Below, one piece after another: positions 1,231 to 16,387 of a stretch of 36,028 nucleotides of DNA (its first letter is position 1; each line of letters opens with the position of its first letter). A program made the position numbers and the translations under genes. Origin of the DNA: a virus. The notes beneath the pieces are model-generated. The model had not been told where the DNA came from. It did no database searches and worked only from the letters and a program-made list of their open reading frames with translations. The stretch lies in IMG/VR virus record IMGVR_UViG_3300022752_000196, positions 1 through 36,028 of that record; one strand, 5' to 3'.

Positions 1231-1268
1231 TTTTGGGCAGTTTTGGGGGTTTGGATGTCTCTCTTTAT

Positions 1269-1293
1269 CGTGTCTAGGGTGTTCGGTGTGGTA
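1269..1293. repeat. 25-bp intergenic repeat, copy 1 (partner at 2901-2925)
   Basis: A 25-bp word beginning CGTGTCTA and ending GTGTGGTA occurs here and at 2901-2925 with one mismatch. Both copies sit in the spacer upstream of a minus-strand operon (about 190 and 115 bp before the first ATG). That placement suits a promoter element or an activator site, but no clear -35/-10 pair coincides with it. Confidence 0.6.
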
Positions 1294-1311
1294 TGACTTG
1301 GATACGACAAA

Positions 1312-1342
1312 CCCCCCGAACTGTCCTAAAGGTTTCGGGGGG
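1312..1342 (-). terminator. G/C hairpin downstream of the 1555-2785 operon
   Basis: CCCCCCGAA (1312-1320) pairs perfectly with TTCGGGGGG (1334-1342) around a 13-base loop. In the direction of transcription it follows the 11-bp array and two GATCACTG words that come after the stop codon at 1555. A short T/C-rich stretch rather than a strong T tract follows. It is probably the transcript end of the 2785-1555 operon. Confidence 0.45.
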
Positions 1343-1371
1343 CTAATCTGGATCACTGGGGGGCTAAACTT

Positions 1372-1454: not shown

Positions 1455-1550
1455 ACCAAAAACTGACCAAATTCTAACCAAATACTGACCAGAATATGAC
1501 CAGAATATGACCAGAATTTGACCAGAATTTGACCAAATCTAAACCAGATT
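1455..1550. repeat. Phased 11-bp repeat array, nine copies
   Basis: The trinucleotide ACC recurs at 1455, 1466, 1477, 1488, 1499, 1510, 1521, 1532 and 1543, exactly 11 bp apart nine times, within a unit of about TGACCAGAATT. The array starts 5 bp after the stop codon of the 1555-1779 gene. On the minus-strand transcript it reads as GGT every 11 nt. A/T runs phased close to the helical turn should make the DNA curved. A second array with the same period lies at 3048-3135. It could be a multimer-binding site, a curved regulatory region or an RNA-binding-protein array; none of these is proven. Confidence 0.75.
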
Positions 1551-1554
1551 AGAG

Positions 1555-1779
1555 CTAATCGGGGACTGTAAAGGTTGCTCTAATTTGCGCTTCTGTCCAA
1601 ATTTGACTAACCGAAACTGGGAAACTGCAACCCTTCGGGGTATATACGCTAACCGCTTCCCAGTCTCCCCGATTACTAAACGGGGCTTGAATTTGTCTAA
1701 CCAACCGAATTGTTTTAGGGTAATCTGTCCAGGTTGCTAGCCCTTCCGGTTTGCCTACAAATATTTGATTAGGCTTCAT
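1555..1779 (-). CDS. Hypothetical protein (74 aa)
   Basis: An unrecognised small protein with an even spread of polar and aromatic residues, probably a compact beta-rich domain. Its ATG overlaps the stop of the upstream 1779-2171 gene (TAATG), so the two are translationally coupled. It is the last gene of a four-gene operon running 2785 to 1555. Its stop is followed after 5 bp by the nine-copy 11-bp array. No membrane segment or metal site was seen. Confidence 0.55.
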   Translation of the reverse strand: MKPNQIFVGKPEGLATWTDYPKTIRLVRQIQAPFSNRGDWEAVSVYTPKGCSFPVSVSQIWTEAQIRATFTVPD

Positions 1780-2171
1780 TAGTTCGCCAAACTGTAACGC
1801 TCGATAGAGTAACCTTGGTTTTCGAAACCTTCGGCTATAAACCCGTAATTACTTAGGGCGTGTCCTAACTGATATGCAACTTGGAAGCTCCGCTCGAAGC
1901 CGCCCCCGTTACCCTTTAAATACCCTTCGGGGTTGCGCTTACCGAAACCTAGAAGCTCCAAATAGTAGTTAAGATACAAATTATCTACTAAACCAGACTG
2001 ATCAACATACCATAACCGGACTGAGTAAGTCCAGGCGGTGTTAGTTTTGTTTGTTTTGTGGATCACTGTCTCCAGTTTTCCGCCCTTGGTGTGGTATGTC
2101 TCGAATATATGTTTTGCGGCTTCAATTTTGTCCGCTTCAGTTGCGGTGTTGTTATAGGTTACAGTAACCAT
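1779..2171 (-). CDS. Hypothetical protein (130 aa)
   Basis: No known family recognised. The N-terminal half has alternating hydrophobic residues and a Lys/Thr-rich turn (residues 30-48). The C-terminal half is rich in Tyr, Gly and Asn. It is coupled by TAATG-type overlaps to both neighbours (2171 and 1779). One GATCACTG word (2061-2068) lies inside the gene, where it is read as Val-Ile-His. It is probably an accessory protein made with the rest of the small-gene operon. Confidence 0.55.
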   Translation of the reverse strand: MVTVTYNNTATEADKIEAAKHIFETYHTKGGKLETVIHKTNKTNTAWTYSVRLWYVDQSGLVDNLYLNYYLELLGFGKRNPEGYLKGNGGGFERSFQVAYQLGHALSNYGFIAEGFENQGYSIERYSLAN

Positions 2172-2386
2172 CAGTTTTGACCCTTCATTAGTTGTTTGTA
2201 GGTTTTGCGAGCTTCAGTTAAAGAACTAAAGGTGTGCCATTCGGCATTAGAGCGTTGCAAGTGATAGCATCCATCTTGATAAAGCTTCCATCCATTGCCC
2301 AGAATTTGGACATATCCGCAAGCTAAAGAATAGGCGGTTAAACTGCCGTCTCTATTGTAGAACTTAGGTTCTTTATATGTTGCCAT
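2171..2386 (-). CDS. Hypothetical protein (71 aa)
   Basis: A small protein with many Tyr and Trp residues and a basic C-terminus (TYKQLMKGQN). The start ATG is preceded by AAGGGTAATCAACTA, which gives a usable ribosome site. It ends in a one-base overlap with the next start (2171). It is the second gene of the 2785-1555 operon. The pattern of aromatic residues resembles small phage proteins that interact with host factors, but no specific family can be named. Confidence 0.55.
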   Translation of the reverse strand: MATYKEPKFYNRDGSLTAYSLACGYVQILGNGWKLYQDGCYHLQRSNAEWHTFSSLTEARKTYKQLMKGQN

Positions 2387-2404
2387 TAGTTGATTACCCT
2401 TCTA

Positions 2405-2785
2405 TTAGTTTTCGCCTAGATAAAGCTTAATAATATGTTGCGGAAATTCATTAGCGGGGTCTGTAATGTAATCAACCCCGTAACTAGACAGATACCCTTC
2501 TAGATAAATGTCGCAAGTTTCACAAGTTGGGGGAGTGTCTAAACCTTCCAGAGTAAAGGGTTCAAAACTAATCGGTTCGAACTCTTCCCCTTCTGGTCTA
2601 GGCTGCACAGTTTTAGTGTATGCCGGAGCTATTTCAATTTGCCTAAGCGGGTCTCTAGCCCAAACTAGGCGGTTAGCTTCCGCAAACTCATTAGCGCAAG
2701 GTCTGCACATAAAATGCCAAACCTCGAATTGATCCTTAGACATATAGAGAGTGTCAAGATATGTCTGCTCTTCTTTAGTTTCCAT
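2405..2785 (-). CDS. Probable zinc-binding hypothetical protein (126 aa)
   Basis: Two CxxC pairs, CRPC near residue 27 and CETC near residue 88, could together hold one zinc ion, with a long acidic loop between them. The fold is not recognised. The C-terminus is acidic (KLYLGEN). It is the first gene of the operon running 2785 to 1555, with AAGGG before the ATG and the 16-bp palindrome at 2805-2820 in its leader. A small zinc-stabilised accessory protein is the most that can be said. Confidence 0.6.
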   Translation of the reverse strand: METKEEQTYLDTLYMSKDQFEVWHFMCRPCANEFAEANRLVWARDPLRQIEIAPAYTKTVQPRPEGEEFEPISFEPFTLEGLDTPPTCETCDIYLEGYLSSYGVDYITDPANEFPQHIIKLYLGEN

Positions 2786-2804
2786 AATTTACCCTTCATT
2801 AGTT

Positions 2805-2820
2805 TTAGGCAATTGCCTAA
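2805..2820 (-). promoter_or_regulatory. Perfect 16-bp palindrome in the leader of the 2785 operon
   Basis: TTAGGCAATTGCCTAA is fully symmetric and lies 20-35 bp upstream of the ATG at 2785, just before AAC and an AAGGG ribosome site. As DNA it looks like a dimeric repressor operator. As RNA it could fold into the same pre-SD stem-loop seen at 1097-1114 and 5807-5824. A TATAAA-like box (minus strand, about 2829-2834) just upstream makes an operator overlapping a promoter plausible. Confidence 0.5.
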
Positions 2821-2900
2821 CTAATAATTTATAGGTTTCAACCTGGAAATTGGTGAATTAGCTCGAATTTGTTTGTAACAAGTTTGTTATCTCATTTTGG

Positions 2901-2925
2901 CGTGTCTAAGGTGTTCGGTGTGGTA
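2901..2925. repeat. 25-bp intergenic repeat, copy 2 (partner at 1269-1293)
   Basis: Same 25-bp word as at 1269-1293 with one base different, about 115 bp upstream of the first gene of the 2785 operon. The surrounding spacer (2786-3139) holds no supportable gene. An open minus frame across it is produced only by the repeat array. Confidence 0.6.
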
Positions 2926-3047
2926 AGTTTTCGAGCTATTGGGCGAAACCTGGAAATGAGCTAGCCCAGTGATCTAAGCCGGAGCTGCCCTAAAGTGTTC
3001 TGGGGGTGATCTTCTGGCGTTGGGTAACCAGATCTTGCAGAGATCGA

Positions 3048-3135
3048 ACCAGATTTCAACCAGATTTAAACCAAAAACTGACCAAAATTTGACCAGATTT
3101 AGACCAAATTTTGACCAGATTTTGACCAGATTTAG
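3048..3135. repeat. Phased 11-bp repeat array, eight copies
   Basis: ACC occurs at 3048, 3059, 3070, 3081, 3092, 3103, 3114 and 3125, exactly 11 bp apart, in a unit of about TTGACCAGATT. As at 1455-1550, the array starts just after the stop codon of a minus-strand gene (3140) and has the same orientation. A GATCACTG word (3138-3145) overlaps that stop. The unit sequences differ enough that recent tandem duplication alone does not explain the constant period, which points to selected phasing. Confidence 0.75.
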
Positions 3136-3139
3136 CGGA

Positions 3140-3352
3140 TCACTGGTGCGGATAGTGTCCGGCAAGTGTGAAATTATCACAGTCCCATTCACTCATACCC
3201 GCTCTACGAACCGAAACTTGACCAGATTTAATGTCTAACCGAATTATTGCTAAAGCTTCTGCAATAGTGTCCGCCCAGACATAATCCCAAACGCCAGAGT
3301 TAGGGCCGAAACCGAAACCAGATACTCCGGTTGTGTATGCGTAAAAGTTCAT
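3140..3352 (-). CDS. Hypothetical protein (70 aa)
   Basis: Glycine- and aromatic-rich N-terminus (residues 5-30), then a helix-like segment and a polar C-terminus. No family recognised. The ATG has AAGGGAAATCACTA upstream and overlaps the stop of the previous gene (3352, TAATG). It is the last gene of the long 5787-3140 group of small genes. It is followed directly by the eight-copy 11-bp array, so its 3' end lies in the repeated spacer module. Confidence 0.5.
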   Translation of the reverse strand: MNFYAYTTGVSGFGFGPNSGVWDYVWADTIAEALAIIRLDIKSGQVSVRRAGMSEWDCDNFTLAGHYPHQ

Positions 3353-5824: not shown

Positions 5825-5904
5825 AAAACACACAATACGGCAGACCTGGACAATAAAGATCAACTTTGTTGCGTTTCGTTATAAATTCGTTATAAAAGCT
5901 AAAA

Positions 5905-5932
5905 ACCCCCTAACGGACAAAGATTAGGGGGT
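5905..5932 (-). terminator. Intrinsic terminator downstream of the HNH gene
   Basis: ACCCCCTAA (5905-5913) pairs perfectly with TTAGGGGGT (5924-5932) around a 10-base loop. On the minus strand the stem is followed by TTTTT, as expected of an intrinsic terminator. It ends the transcript carrying the 8-kb to 6-kb genes. Between the HNH stop (5992) and this hairpin lie a few ACCAAAT words resembling the phased arrays but without their 11-bp period, and a GATCACTG word overlapping the stop codon. Confidence 0.7.
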
Positions 5933-5991
5933 CTAGCTTGTTACCTGGTATTGGGTATCACAACCAAATTTTAGAACCAAATAACCAAATT

Positions 5992-6324
5992 TTAGATCAC
6001 TGGTTTATTTCCACGCTTCTCATTACAACTCTTGTGAGCTGGCAGCAAGATCGCATTAGAACCAAATTCCCCAGGATTAAGATGGTCAGCAACCCAAGGA
6101 TCATTAACCCTAGCACCATCACCGCATAAATGGCAAAGTAAAGCAGTCTCACGAACCAGTTTTGCCCTTTTCTTGTAATCACCGGAATACTGTCCCGTCT
6201 GTTTCTTTACTACTGCCCTTTTAGCGTTATGTAACTGTTCAACCAGATTTTCGTGTTCATCACATCTGTTATTGCCGGTAGTGAGCTGACCGCAGTCTAG
6301 ACAAGGTTTAGGAAACCTACCCAT
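5992..6324 (-). CDS. HNH endonuclease-like protein (110 aa)
   Basis: N-terminal Cys cluster (CLDCG...C...H, residues 8-24) is a first zinc knuckle. A second CHLCG (about 64-68), the ADHLNPGEFG segment (His of the HNH core, about 79-88) and LLPAHKSCNEKRGN (93-106) form a typical HNH module. In phages such small HNH proteins are homing-type nickases or partners of the terminase in cos cleavage. This one lies far from the terminase unless the genome circularises. It is followed by an intrinsic terminator and overlaps the upstream gene by 8 bp. Confidence 0.75.
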   Translation of the reverse strand: MGRFPKPCLDCGQLTTGNNRCDEHENLVEQLHNAKRAVVKKQTGQYSGDYKKRAKLVRETALLCHLCGDGARVNDPWVADHLNPGEFGSNAILLPAHKSCNEKRGNKPVI

Positions 6325-6488: not shown

Positions 6489-6659
6489 CTAATCTTTACC
6501 CCAACCAGATCCTTTGAACTGGACTGATGGGCTACCAAATAGTCTAACCAAATTTTCTTTACATTGCTTACACTTTTTTGGTGGAATATGGTTATTGTTT
6601 ATTGGTTCAGTAATAATGAACTTATGGCCATTAGAGCATTGATATTCATAAACTGGCAT
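6489..6659 (-). CDS. FmdB-family zinc-ribbon protein (56 aa)
   Basis: The start MPVYEYQCSNGHKF, a second CKQC pair at about residues 31-34 and the end GSPSVQFKGSGWGKD follow the FmdB-type putative regulatory zinc ribbon closely, including the C-terminal Phe-Lys-Gly-Ser-Gly-Trp. In bacteria this family is small and its function is poorly defined; transcription regulation has been suggested. Phage copies are common in actinophages. It overlaps the end of the 6659-6868 gene by one base (TAATG). Confidence 0.7.
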   Translation of the reverse strand: MPVYEYQCSNGHKFIITEPINNNHIPPKKCKQCKENLVRLFGSPSVQFKGSGWGKD

Positions 6660-8769: not shown

Positions 8770-9073
8770 TAGACTGCCAAACTCTAATAGGTCTAGCGTG
8801 TGATGATGGTCTAACAGACGAAATAAACCTATCTGTAGGTGTGATTAGGTTTTGCTTCGCAGCTGACCTAAACATTGCCCCCATAGCAGATGGCTGATGG
8901 GTTGTGATTGCCGGATAGTTTTGTAGTTCTAACCAAACATCGTCAGATGTGATAGTTGCTGATTTTGCGATCAAATCTTTGATGATTTGAGCAACCAGGT
9001 TAGTCCATTCAGCGTTAGCGTTTTCTTCTACTTGATCTAGTGCTTCATCTCTTAGTTGTGTTGCAGTTTTCAT
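8762..9073 (-). CDS. Conserved actinophage protein, possible winged-helix (103 aa)
   Basis: Residues 40-75 (SDDVWLELQNYP...MGAMFRSAAKQNLITPTDRF) and the end SSHARPIRVWQSN correspond to a family frequent in actinophages, in which a short helical N-terminus is followed by a winged-helix-like domain and an invariant His-x-Arg-Pro-x-Arg-Val-Trp. The family has no proven function. It lies just after the methyltransferase with a one-base overlap, so it may be co-regulated with DNA modification. Confidence 0.6.
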   Translation of the reverse strand: MKTATQLRDEALDQVEENANAEWTNLVAQIIKDLIAKSATITSDDVWLELQNYPAITTHQPSAMGAMFRSAAKQNLITPTDRFISSVRPSSHARPIRVWQSNA

Positions 9074-10534
9074 TATTTTCCTTCCAGTTCAATGTCTTGT
9101 AGCAGTATTCTCAAAGCTAGTTCTGCTTGCTGTGGAACAACACCATTACCGCAAGCCTTGAGTTGATCGTTACGCTTCAAACCAATTTCAGGGCTAGTAA
9201 CCCAACCTTCAGGCAACCCCATCATCCATTCAGTAAATTCAGCTGACAGGCGATGATTACCATTCTTACCATCTGGTTTAGTAGGTGCAGGTGCAGGGCG
9301 AGTGATTGCTTCCCAGCGTTCAATAGCTGGCGCAAACTTACCCCAGTCAATAGTTGTTCTAGCCAAAGTAGGCATCGTTAGATCACCACCTTCGGTAGCA
9401 ATCTTGTCCATAGTTTTTTGGTTTCTGCGCTCATAGCCATCAGAAGCTCGCAATGTAGGAAGCAAAACTTCACCGCTATTGAAAATAGCTCTAGCCACAG
9501 TATCTACAGAAACAACCCCATCACGAGTTTGTGCGGCTGACCCATCCTTATAGTCACGAACAATAGGTGTAGGCAATAGTTGCACTTGATCTTCAAGCCT
9601 AGCTTTAGGCGCACCATTCTCAACTTCTTTACTGGTAGAACCATTAGCTGAAGAAGTCCTAGGAGTGCCAAGCAACCTTATTTCAGAATCATCGAAATCA
9701 TCAAGAAAATCATTTTCAGGTAACTCGTTGATTACTACTTCACGAAGATTTCTATAACCCCCTGAACTGCGCTCCTTCAATTCAGCGATCTCTTCAGGTG
9801 TTTTGATTTCCCTGTGTTCCATCGTGTTGGGTGTAGGAAGCAAATTATCTGCTTCTCTAGAAACTTTCAAACCTTGGCTTGCAACCAAATCCATGACCTG
9901 ATCACGAACACCAACAGTATTGCCACGCTTCAACGCTTCGGCTTCACCTAAAGCCCCGCCAGAACCTTCACTTGCTTTGGGGGAACGCAATAATGAAGAC
10001 TCTAAATCTGTTATGGGGCGCACCTGCATCGGCAGCTCGAAGACCACACCATTTTGCATCATACCCCAAGTCGGCCAGCGATCCGAGAACGGCCTGTATT
10101 GCTGTGAAAACAGGTTGTCTTCCCCAATCATCCAAAGTTTGTGAATCGTATTCCATTCCGTTATCTGCTTTAGCACTTAGCAAACCCCTAACATTTTCTA
10201 TAACAACCAATTTAGGTTGCAGTTCTTCAATAGCTCTAGCAAACTCTGACCAAAGACCACTTCTTGTGCCTTCAGCCAAACCTGCTCTTTTACCGGCAAG
10301 ACTTAGATCTTGGCAAGGAAAACCGCCAGTCAAAATGTCTACTTTTTCTACTTGTGTGAAATCAACTTTTGTGACATCACGATAGTTTGGAATGCCTGGG
10401 AAGTTGCGTTTAAGGATTTTGCTTGGTGCATCATCCCATTCGCAATGCCAAACAACTTCGCCACCTGTGACTGCGGTTACGGCTAGATCTAGTCCACCAT
10501 AACCAGAGAATAGGCTACCGATTTTCATATTCAT
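9073..10534 (-). CDS. DNA (cytosine-5-)methyltransferase, split by a +1 frame change
   Basis: The first frame (10534 to 9968, 188 aa) carries motif I (FSGYGGLDLA, 9-18), the catalytic PCQ (Cys74) and ENV (113-115), then ends at a stop just after FIIAFPQSK. The rest of the enzyme, including LLPTP repeats, LSAEFTEWMMGLPEGWV and the final motif CGNGVVPQ, continues in the +1 frame to 9073. Joining at the CCCCC run (9979-9983) gives one enzyme of about 486 aa reading ...AFPKASEGSG. Each frame alone lacks essential motifs. Programmed +1 slippage, a genuine inactivating mutation and a homopolymer sequencing error are all possible. The enzyme would methylate cytosine in phage DNA, usually to evade host restriction. 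Confidence 0.75.
9979..9983 (-). other. C5 run at the methyltransferase frame change
   Basis: On the minus strand the frame reads TTC CCC CAA AGC AAG TGA; skipping one C gives TTC CCC AAA GCA AGT, which continues the methyltransferase. CCC-C is a sequence on which proline tRNA is known to slip +1. The stop follows 9 bases after the slip point. Confidence 0.6.
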
Positions 10535-12577: not shown

Positions 12578-13399
12578 TCAGTCTATTTCCTTATTGCGGT
12601 TTTGCAACTTACATTCATAGCAGTTATAGACGATGCGATCATGCACACAAAGCTTTGGAGCGTTCTTTTTTACTTCTTCTTCACGCAACTTATCTTCCAA
12701 AGCCCTTTGGCGTTCAATCTCTCTATCTTTTTCTCGTCTTGCTTCTTCAGCCTTACGAGCATCAGCCAAAAGTTCTTCCTTCGACTTTGTTCTTTCAGGA
12801 AGTAAACCATCAGCCCAACGATCACCATTCAACCAGGTTGTCGGATACGGGATGAACTCTAAAGGCGGCAAATTAGGGTCATTACCGAATCTGATAGCCC
12901 CAGCAAGAATCTCGTCATGCGATGCTCTACCTAAAGCAGATTCGAAAGCTTTTACAGCTGCTCGCTTAGAAACCTTGCGTGGATAAACATTCCAAAATTC
13001 TTCAAAATGAGCATATAGGTTAATATATGTTTCTATTGATGGTTTGTCGGACAGATCTGTCCCCCCTGACTTACCCAGTCTGTCCCCCCTGGTGACCTGA
13101 TCTGTCCCCCCTGTTACCCAGTCTGTCCCCCCTGACAAAGTGATCCAATACTTGTTTGTCTTGTATTGACCACCAAATTCAGAGCCGTTTATTTCAACCG
13201 AAAGTTCGCCGAGTTCTTCTAGGTATCGTAAATCTCTGCGGACAGATCTTTCAGAAGCGTTAGCGTATCTAGCTAAGGTCTCAAGAGACGGCCAAGCACC
13301 ATTATCGCCATGATGATTAGCAATACCTATCAAAACGAGTTTTGCTCGCCCTTCAGCACGACTTTTGTTTAGAACGAGTGCGATCATCTCTACTGACAT
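12578..13399 (-). CDS. Replication initiator, lambda-O/DnaT-like with winged-helix N-terminus (273 aa)
   Basis: Start chosen at MSVEMIALVLN, which has AGGGGG upstream and the usual beginning of this family; an ATG at 13465 overlapping the previous gene is an alternative. Residues 1-80 form a winged helix (WPSLETLARYANASERSVRRDL). A Gly-Thr-Asp-rich linker (about 90-115) is encoded by four DNA iterons. The C-terminal half has FEEFWNVYPRKVSKRAAVKAF and YPTTWLNGDRW, found in phage initiators that recruit the host helicase, then a long charged helix and a Cys pair (CYEC). No helicase or polymerase gene is visible, so host machinery is presumably loaded. Confidence 0.75.
   Translation of the reverse strand: MSVEMIALVLNKSRAEGRAKLVLIGIANHHGDNGAWPSLETLARYANASERSVRRDLRYLEELGELSVEINGSEFGGQYKTNKYWITLSGGTDWVTGGTDQVTRGDRLGKSGGTDLSDKPSIETYINLYAHFEEFWNVYPRKVSKRAAVKAFESALGRASHDEILAGAIRFGNDPNLPPLEFIPYPTTWLNGDRWADGLLPERTKSKEELLADARKAEEARREKDREIERQRALEDKLREEEVKKNAPKLCVHDRIVYNCYECKLQNRNKEID
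13009..13134. repeat. Candidate replication origin: four iterons and an AT-rich flank inside the initiator gene
   Basis: TCTGTCCCCCCTG occurs four times without mismatch at 13056-13068, 13079-13091, 13101-13113 and 13122-13134, spaced 23, 22 and 21 bp, close to two helical turns. An AT-rich stretch (about 13009-13040, including TTAATATATG) flanks them on one side. Iterons plus an AT-rich unwinding element within the linker part of an initiator gene is the arrangement of the lambda O origin. Confidence 0.7.
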
Positions 13400-16036: not shown

Positions 16037-16387
16037 ATGACAGACCACCGACAAATGATACCTATTACGCAAAAACTTTTTTCACTATTAGAGAAAATAG
16101 AAGAAAACGGCACAACACCCTGCGTAGATGCGCCAGAGTTCTTCTTCCCAGAAGGCACAGAAGATGCTAAAAGGTATGATATCGGGGCAGCTAAATACTT
16201 ATGTAGCCAATGCCCTGTAATAGATGCTTGCAGAATGTATGCGTTAGAAGCGAAAGAACCCTACGGCATTTGGGGTGGTCTAACCCCTGAAGAAAGAACA
16301 GACTTTACTAAAGCTATTTCTTTTCATCCACTTCGGAATCAACTTTCACATTCTTCAACTGAACGCTCTGCTGGAAAGCAGCGTTAA
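16037..16387 (+). CDS. whiB: WhiB-family Fe-S transcription regulator (116 aa)
   Basis: The only plus-strand gene. It has the four WhiB cysteines Cys29, Cys56, Cys59 and Cys65 (CSQCPVIDAC), which bind a [4Fe-4S] cluster, and the G-[IV]-W-G-G turn (77-81), followed by the LTPEER segment. WhiB-like proteins bind the primary sigma factor of actinobacterial RNA polymerase and redirect promoters. A basic DNA-contact tail is weak: the last 30 residues overlap the convergent 16314-16592 gene and may be unconserved. AAGG precedes the ATG. It probably switches transcription during infection. Confidence 0.9.
   Translation: MTDHRQMIPITQKLFSLLEKIEENGTTPCVDAPEFFFPEGTEDAKRYDIGAAKYLCSQCPVIDACRMYALEAKEPYGIWGGLTPEERTDFTKAISFHPLRNQLSHSSTERSAGKQR

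Follow-up and report, generated by a model that had tools for sequence, protein, structure and literature searches.

Phased 11-bp arrays in an environmental phage genome are the densest parts of a one-strand WTYYGGTY field around an HNH gene

Tandem arrays behind stop codons

The window, i.e. the whole stretch of DNA analysed here, is a virus record of 36,028 bp in which nearly all genes lie on the minus strand; "sense" hereafter denotes the strand of TerL, the minus strand in window coordinates. TerL is located 517 bp from the right end, and since many related contigs start 507-519 bp from TerL, the ends of the window look like natural cos-type ends. No DNA match to the window was found among isolates; Pontimonas phage phiPsal1 (TerL 58.5%), which is reported to be lytic (PMC6106888), comes closest among them. 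Several unrelated features of the genome were noted along the way. A WhiB-like regulator (16037-16387, plus strand) is encoded on the strand opposite to nearly all other genes, and a C5-cytosine methyltransferase (9073-10534, minus strand) is seemingly split into two overlapping frames, 9968-10534 for the N-terminal part and 9073-10176 for the rest, which appears to be a frameshift, either programmed or a sequencing error. Near the left end (66-120) three operator-like palindromes similar to TTACCTAGGTAA lie about 21 bp apart. Counting both strands, the window has 13 copies of GATCACTG, most of them within its first 6 kb (eight of the copies are at 198, 1351, 1426, 2061, 3138, 3541, 5001 and 5995), and ten related genomes have 0-1 copies on each strand.

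The triplet ACC recurs at an exact 11-bp period nine times from position 1455 and eight times from position 3048; one additional in-phase ACC at 1444 looks fortuitous. Allowing any period from 8 to 23, the longest run of ACC or GGT was 10 in the window (period 11), compared with 2-4 in 200 Markov genomes, and the autocorrelation at lag 11 reached 0.81 and 0.79 in the two arrays against a background of ~0.25. The original prediction, which had described the nine and eight units, their position beside stop codons and their common orientation and had proposed the autocorrelation, is thus borne out in these points, far beyond chance. The arrays are flanked by minus-strand genes and immediately follow, on the 3' side, the stops at 1555 and 3140; on this strand the array unit is GGTCAAAATCT-like. 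Both predicted arrays are real, but they are joined by a third, shorter one behind the stop of an HNH endonuclease gene. The features of the region, all on the minus strand, are as follows.

1251-1302, minus strand: second copy of a promoter-like repeated element, downstream of A1; putative promoter
1309-1344, minus strand: intrinsic-terminator-like hairpin, about 110 nt after A1
1455-1553, minus strand: array A1, composed of nine units of 11 nt (sense ...TYTGGTY...); abuts the stop of ORF 1555-1779
1555-1779, minus strand: ORF of 74 aa, its stop followed by A1; the L145 homologue is likewise followed by an array
2883-2934, minus strand: promoter-like repeated element (TAGACACG), downstream of A2; putative promoter
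3048-3135, minus strand: array A2, composed of eight units of 11 nt; abuts the stop of ORF 3140-3352, with an additional copy 21 nt further on (~3030)
3140-3352, minus strand: ORF of 70 aa, its stop followed by A2; arrays follow its homologues too
5903-5934, minus strand: intrinsic-terminator-like hairpin CCCCCTAA...TTAGGGGG with a T run, located some 27 nt past the HNH array
5962-5990, minus strand: third, short array, three motif copies with spacings of 8 and 13, after the HNH stop at 5992
5992-6324, minus strand: zinc-ribbon HNH endonuclease of 110 aa, best match PHROG phrog_144 (E 3e-6); centre of the motif field
6489-6659, minus strand: small zinc-ribbon protein (Zn_ribbon_8 / FmdB-like; Pfam PF09723, E 1.2e-8; PHROG FmdB-like), upstream of the HNH gene

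For a test of column constraint the 17 units of A1 and A2 were defined by phase only. The columns of T.TGGT are invariant in 17/17 units and all 36 changes fall into the six other columns; the content between the ACC triplets, which had been described as variable, therefore varies in six columns, while part of it is strictly kept. Two variants of the motif occur in the one genome, TTTGGTT after the HNH gene and TCTGGTC in A1 and A2. A neutral minisatellite, i.e. tandem duplication followed by drift, would agree with the differences in copy number and spacing between relatives. However, mutations wholly avoid five of the eleven columns (P of three adjacent invariant columns <5e-5), the same motif stands behind unrelated genes, and synonymous sites in coding sequence are enriched for it as well (see below). 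Duplication of a unit followed by mere drift does not produce the invariance of T.TGGT, and this already disfavoured explanation is very unlikely.

Position, polarity and spacing in related phages

The strict exact-11 pattern matched only one relative among 39 records, while autocorrelation and further pattern searches turned up more array-bearing relatives. These arrays have the same sense orientation and are located 3' of homologues of ORF 3140-3352, the HNH gene and ORF 1555, and of a tRNA-Leu gene. A2 and its preceding gene are conserved in L145, G004, G002, G013 and L185, and the position of the third array after the HNH stop is also occupied in many relatives; a search for related loci with ORF 1779-2171 as query gave no matches. 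The motif-bearing relatives are a family of environmental actinobacterial phages. Related phages are divided in this respect, as many of them have arrays while phiPsal1 and some others do not. Among bacterial genomes only 2 matches to the same array were found, in unrelated phyla. In G004 an unrelated perfect 18-bp tandem array (L096 10896-11012) adjoins the 11-bp array.

To avoid selecting on spacing, loci were gathered by anchor proteins alone and the sequence after the stops was inspected. In 77 non-redundant loci the motif WTYYGGTY was present 277 times in sense and once in antisense orientation within the first 150 nt after the stop. In the next two 150-nt windows the ratio of sense to antisense was 15:5 and 2:9. 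At least three motif copies were found in 48/77 loci. Arrays begin close behind the stop (median distance 4 nt, IQR 4-8), whereas downstream promoter-like sequences lie at varying distances (113-314).

Spacing between neighbouring copies is far less uniform than in the window. Among 208 spacings we counted 11 nt (107), 13 (34), 15 (12), 21 (11), 25 and 27 (13), 8 (9) and 12 (2), whereas 14 and 16 never occur; 185/208 are odd. GGTC is followed mainly by an 11-nt spacing and GGTT by other spacings (odds ratio 11, p 1e-7). Tetraloop mini-hairpins were considered as the cause of the odd spacings and rejected, since their outer pairs are dictated by the motif alone and their inner pairs do not hold up. 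For the 101 spacings other than 11 the mean of cos(2*pi*d/10.5) is 0.000, i.e. there is no helical coherence. What is conserved is the motif, its orientation and its position; the period is not. This speaks against the proposed curved DNA, and against a DNA-binding array on one face of the helix, as what is conserved; some cooperative binding array is possible.

The same spacings bear on an operator array for a regulator that binds 11-bp direct repeats, for example a host response regulator of the OmpR/PhoP type or a phage protein. PHO boxes, the sites of PhoB/PhoP, likewise consist of several 11-nt direct repeat units in tandem, with four to six at one Streptomyces promoter (PMC4415409, PMC7866108), and promoter-like sequences, in some clades LexA-like boxes too, are found downstream of our arrays. 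PHO boxes differ from the window arrays in that they are located upstream of promoters, have the core GTTCACC in Streptomyces and are not known as a field in coding sequence. Instead of a fixed 11-nt spacing at a set distance from the promoter we find spacings of 13, 15 and more, the anchor is the upstream stop rather than the promoter, and coding sequence is enriched too, which makes an operator array quite improbable. The LexA/SOS-like palindromes (CGAACNNNNGTTCG) were observed in 16 loci (L188, L235, L239, L240, L243, L185 and others) at a median of 48 nt past the array end; none was found in the window.

A motif field in coding sequence

A lineage-specific, one-strand WTYYGGTY field is roughly centred on the HNH gene, and the two 11-bp arrays are where it is densest. 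Over the 2.5 kb that precede the HNH stop, WTYYGGTY occurs 400 times in sense orientation. Synonymous shuffling that preserves both protein sequence and codon usage predicts 125 (at most 148 in 50 simulations), and this enrichment is present in all three reading frames; in antisense orientation the count is near expectation (54 versus 39 expected). Restricting the comparison to coding sequence of seven genomes and to codon shuffling, the ratio stayed at 0.6-1.5 over the first four sixths of the genome and rose to 5 and 8 in the remaining two, the antisense ratio was ~1, and permuted control motifs rose much less, with the overlapping control TWYYGGTY reaching 4. A de novo count of 6-mers in coding sequence near the HNH gene gave TCGGTT, TCTGGT, TTCGGT and TTTGGT at the top, and these were recovered in several HNH subclusters. 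As the loci are related, their counts are not independent, and the agreement of subclusters is the better guide. Mere composition, i.e. a genome-wide motif bias, was overturned as an explanation by the codon and synonymous shuffles. Per-position constraint, the strand bias of 277:1 in the 77 loci and the enrichment at synonymous sites together support selection on the motif; of the original proposal of selection for phasing the selection stands and the phasing does not, as relatives use 13, 15, 21-27 and 8 nt.

In most genomes the enrichment tracks the position of the HNH gene and not the right end. This is of relevance for a Chi-like or other polar DNA motif that would act close to a DNA end as a signal to a host recombination nuclease or translocase. 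Strict polarity, independence of reading frame and location in the last third of the genome would all suit such a motif, and the core CTGGT resembles E. coli Chi and has the orientation that Chi must have if the enzyme comes in from the right end. In contrast, the field is centred on the HNH gene with less enrichment between it and the right end, the motif variant drifts between phage clades, and clade members with the same genome layout are without the field. We consider a motif of this kind improbable.

Regarding the association with the HNH gene, the strand bias was found in 7/10 clade genomes, namely those with an HNH at least 58% identical to that of the window, and was absent in the other 3/10 (G035, G038 and phiPsal1), whose HNH is at most 48% identical. 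TerL identity is similar (65-66%) in G037, which has an HNH of ≥58% and the bias, and in G035 and G038, which lack the bias. HNH type is nevertheless confounded with phage phylogeny, which weighs against reading the motif as a site of the HNH enzyme.

Candidate functions of the motif

The HNH protein, for which 47 homologues were aligned and a structure model of pLDDT 88.5 was obtained, has its best match in phrog_144, the PHROG to which the HNH of phage gamma belongs. This small zinc-ribbon enzyme nicks ACCGR/YCGGT on one strand, at YCG^GT (PMC8845596), and its site YCGGT is contained in the enriched core YYGGT. Our leading reading, to which we assign a probability of roughly 0.35, is that the copies of the motif are strand-specific targets of the HNH that the phage itself encodes. 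WTYYGGTY would be the recognition or nicking site of this enzyme, perhaps together with the neighbouring zinc-ribbon protein, and one strand would be nicked at YYG^GT. Tandem copies about one helical turn apart would accumulate where coding constraint ends, directly after stops, and would collect the enzyme. The presence of a zinc-ribbon HNH gene at the centre of the field and the restriction of the sites to one strand support such a link. The estimate is kept at this level because the window HNH resembles that of phage gamma only weakly in sequence (hhalign E 0.0025, probability 12%), the fold search gave weak HNH-domain matches only (E above 0.1), and three Firmicutes phages with a gamma-type HNH (L337-L339) are without a motif field, showing neither enrichment nor polarity of YCGGT near the HNH gene. 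Further points against HNH sites are that A1 and A2 carry TGGT rather than CGGT, that two motif variants exist within one genome, and that the odd-number spacings are left without account.

The purpose of such nicks is a matter of speculation. They might act in gene conversion and recombination in the vicinity of the HNH gene; a nicking-based recombination role has been suggested for phage HNH enzymes (PMC5304195). Alternatively, they might be localized nicks such as those in the virion DNA of tf, T5 and phiKMV-like phages. Such one-strand interruptions have been known since the 1960s, first from T5, but what they do is not yet clear (PMC3517423). The sites in these phages are likewise short and limited to one strand; however, tf has 14 scattered sites with the consensus TACT/RTGMC and no tandem arrays, and the nicks in tf, T5 and phiKMV-like phages were observed, whereas those of the window are putative. 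A wider proposal, which we hold only tentatively, is a self-targeted nickase landscape in which the surroundings of the HNH gene, coding and non-coding, are filled with one-strand nick sites including the tandem arrays, which would drive recombination or controlled self-nicking. Should the phage's own HNH indeed act on the motif, this lineage would offer enzyme and sites together with naturally occurring variants, and what phage HNH nickases and localized nicks do could be tested. If it is something else, a one-strand motif selected at synonymous sites over several kb is still unusual.

Orientation cannot separate action on DNA from action on RNA, as the neighbouring genes run one way and antisense genes near the HNH gene are few. 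The enrichment of synonymous sites over kilobases points to DNA but is also compatible with RNA, and the anchoring at stop codons together with the tRNA case points to a role at transcript 3' ends. The main rival, a serious one that we nonetheless find doubtful, assumes GGUY repeats in RNA, or pause-like RNA polymerase sites, behind the last stop of an operon, with a role in termination, pausing, stability or protein capture. The ring-type RNA-binding protein of the original prediction is a possible reader of the arrays. The start of the arrays is fixed near the stop while the promoter-like distance varies, all arrays are sense-oriented, and one array directly follows the tRNA-Leu gene (G025); stop anchoring and this post-tRNA array fit a transcript element at least as well as HNH sites. 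Intrinsic terminators follow some arrays, including the HNH array and A1 of the window. In the consensus RNA polymerase pause element GG lies ~10-11 nt upstream of YG, an arrangement that an 11-nt spacing reproduces. Against a transcript element, motif enrichment extends kilobases upstream into coding sequence, and Rho loading sites, which are C-rich, would not account for the invariant GGT. As a general partner of the arrays intrinsic terminators were dismissed, being present by strict criteria in just 8/72 loci. A conserved RNA hairpin was discarded as well: the window arrays have strong hairpins (z -5.5 and -4.3) that are missing from many relatives, so that secondary structure is not kept across relatives, and no Rfam family matched.

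Replication-origin iterons are the least likely of the explanations considered. GGT-containing direct repeats with an 11-bp period do occur in unrelated phages, where arrays of TGGTT were located inside DnaD-like or replication-initiation genes in 10/10 cases tested, a location that also led us to reject integrase arm sites as an explanation for these unrelated arrays. The arrays of the window differ from such iterons in being intergenic and sense-oriented, with two or three per genome, and the RepO gene has separate iterons of its own. These iterons of 21-22 bp have the sequence CAGGGGxGACAGA, are unlike the arrays, and are located at 13054-13145 in the window and in the RepO genes of close relatives, where they likely constitute the replication origin.
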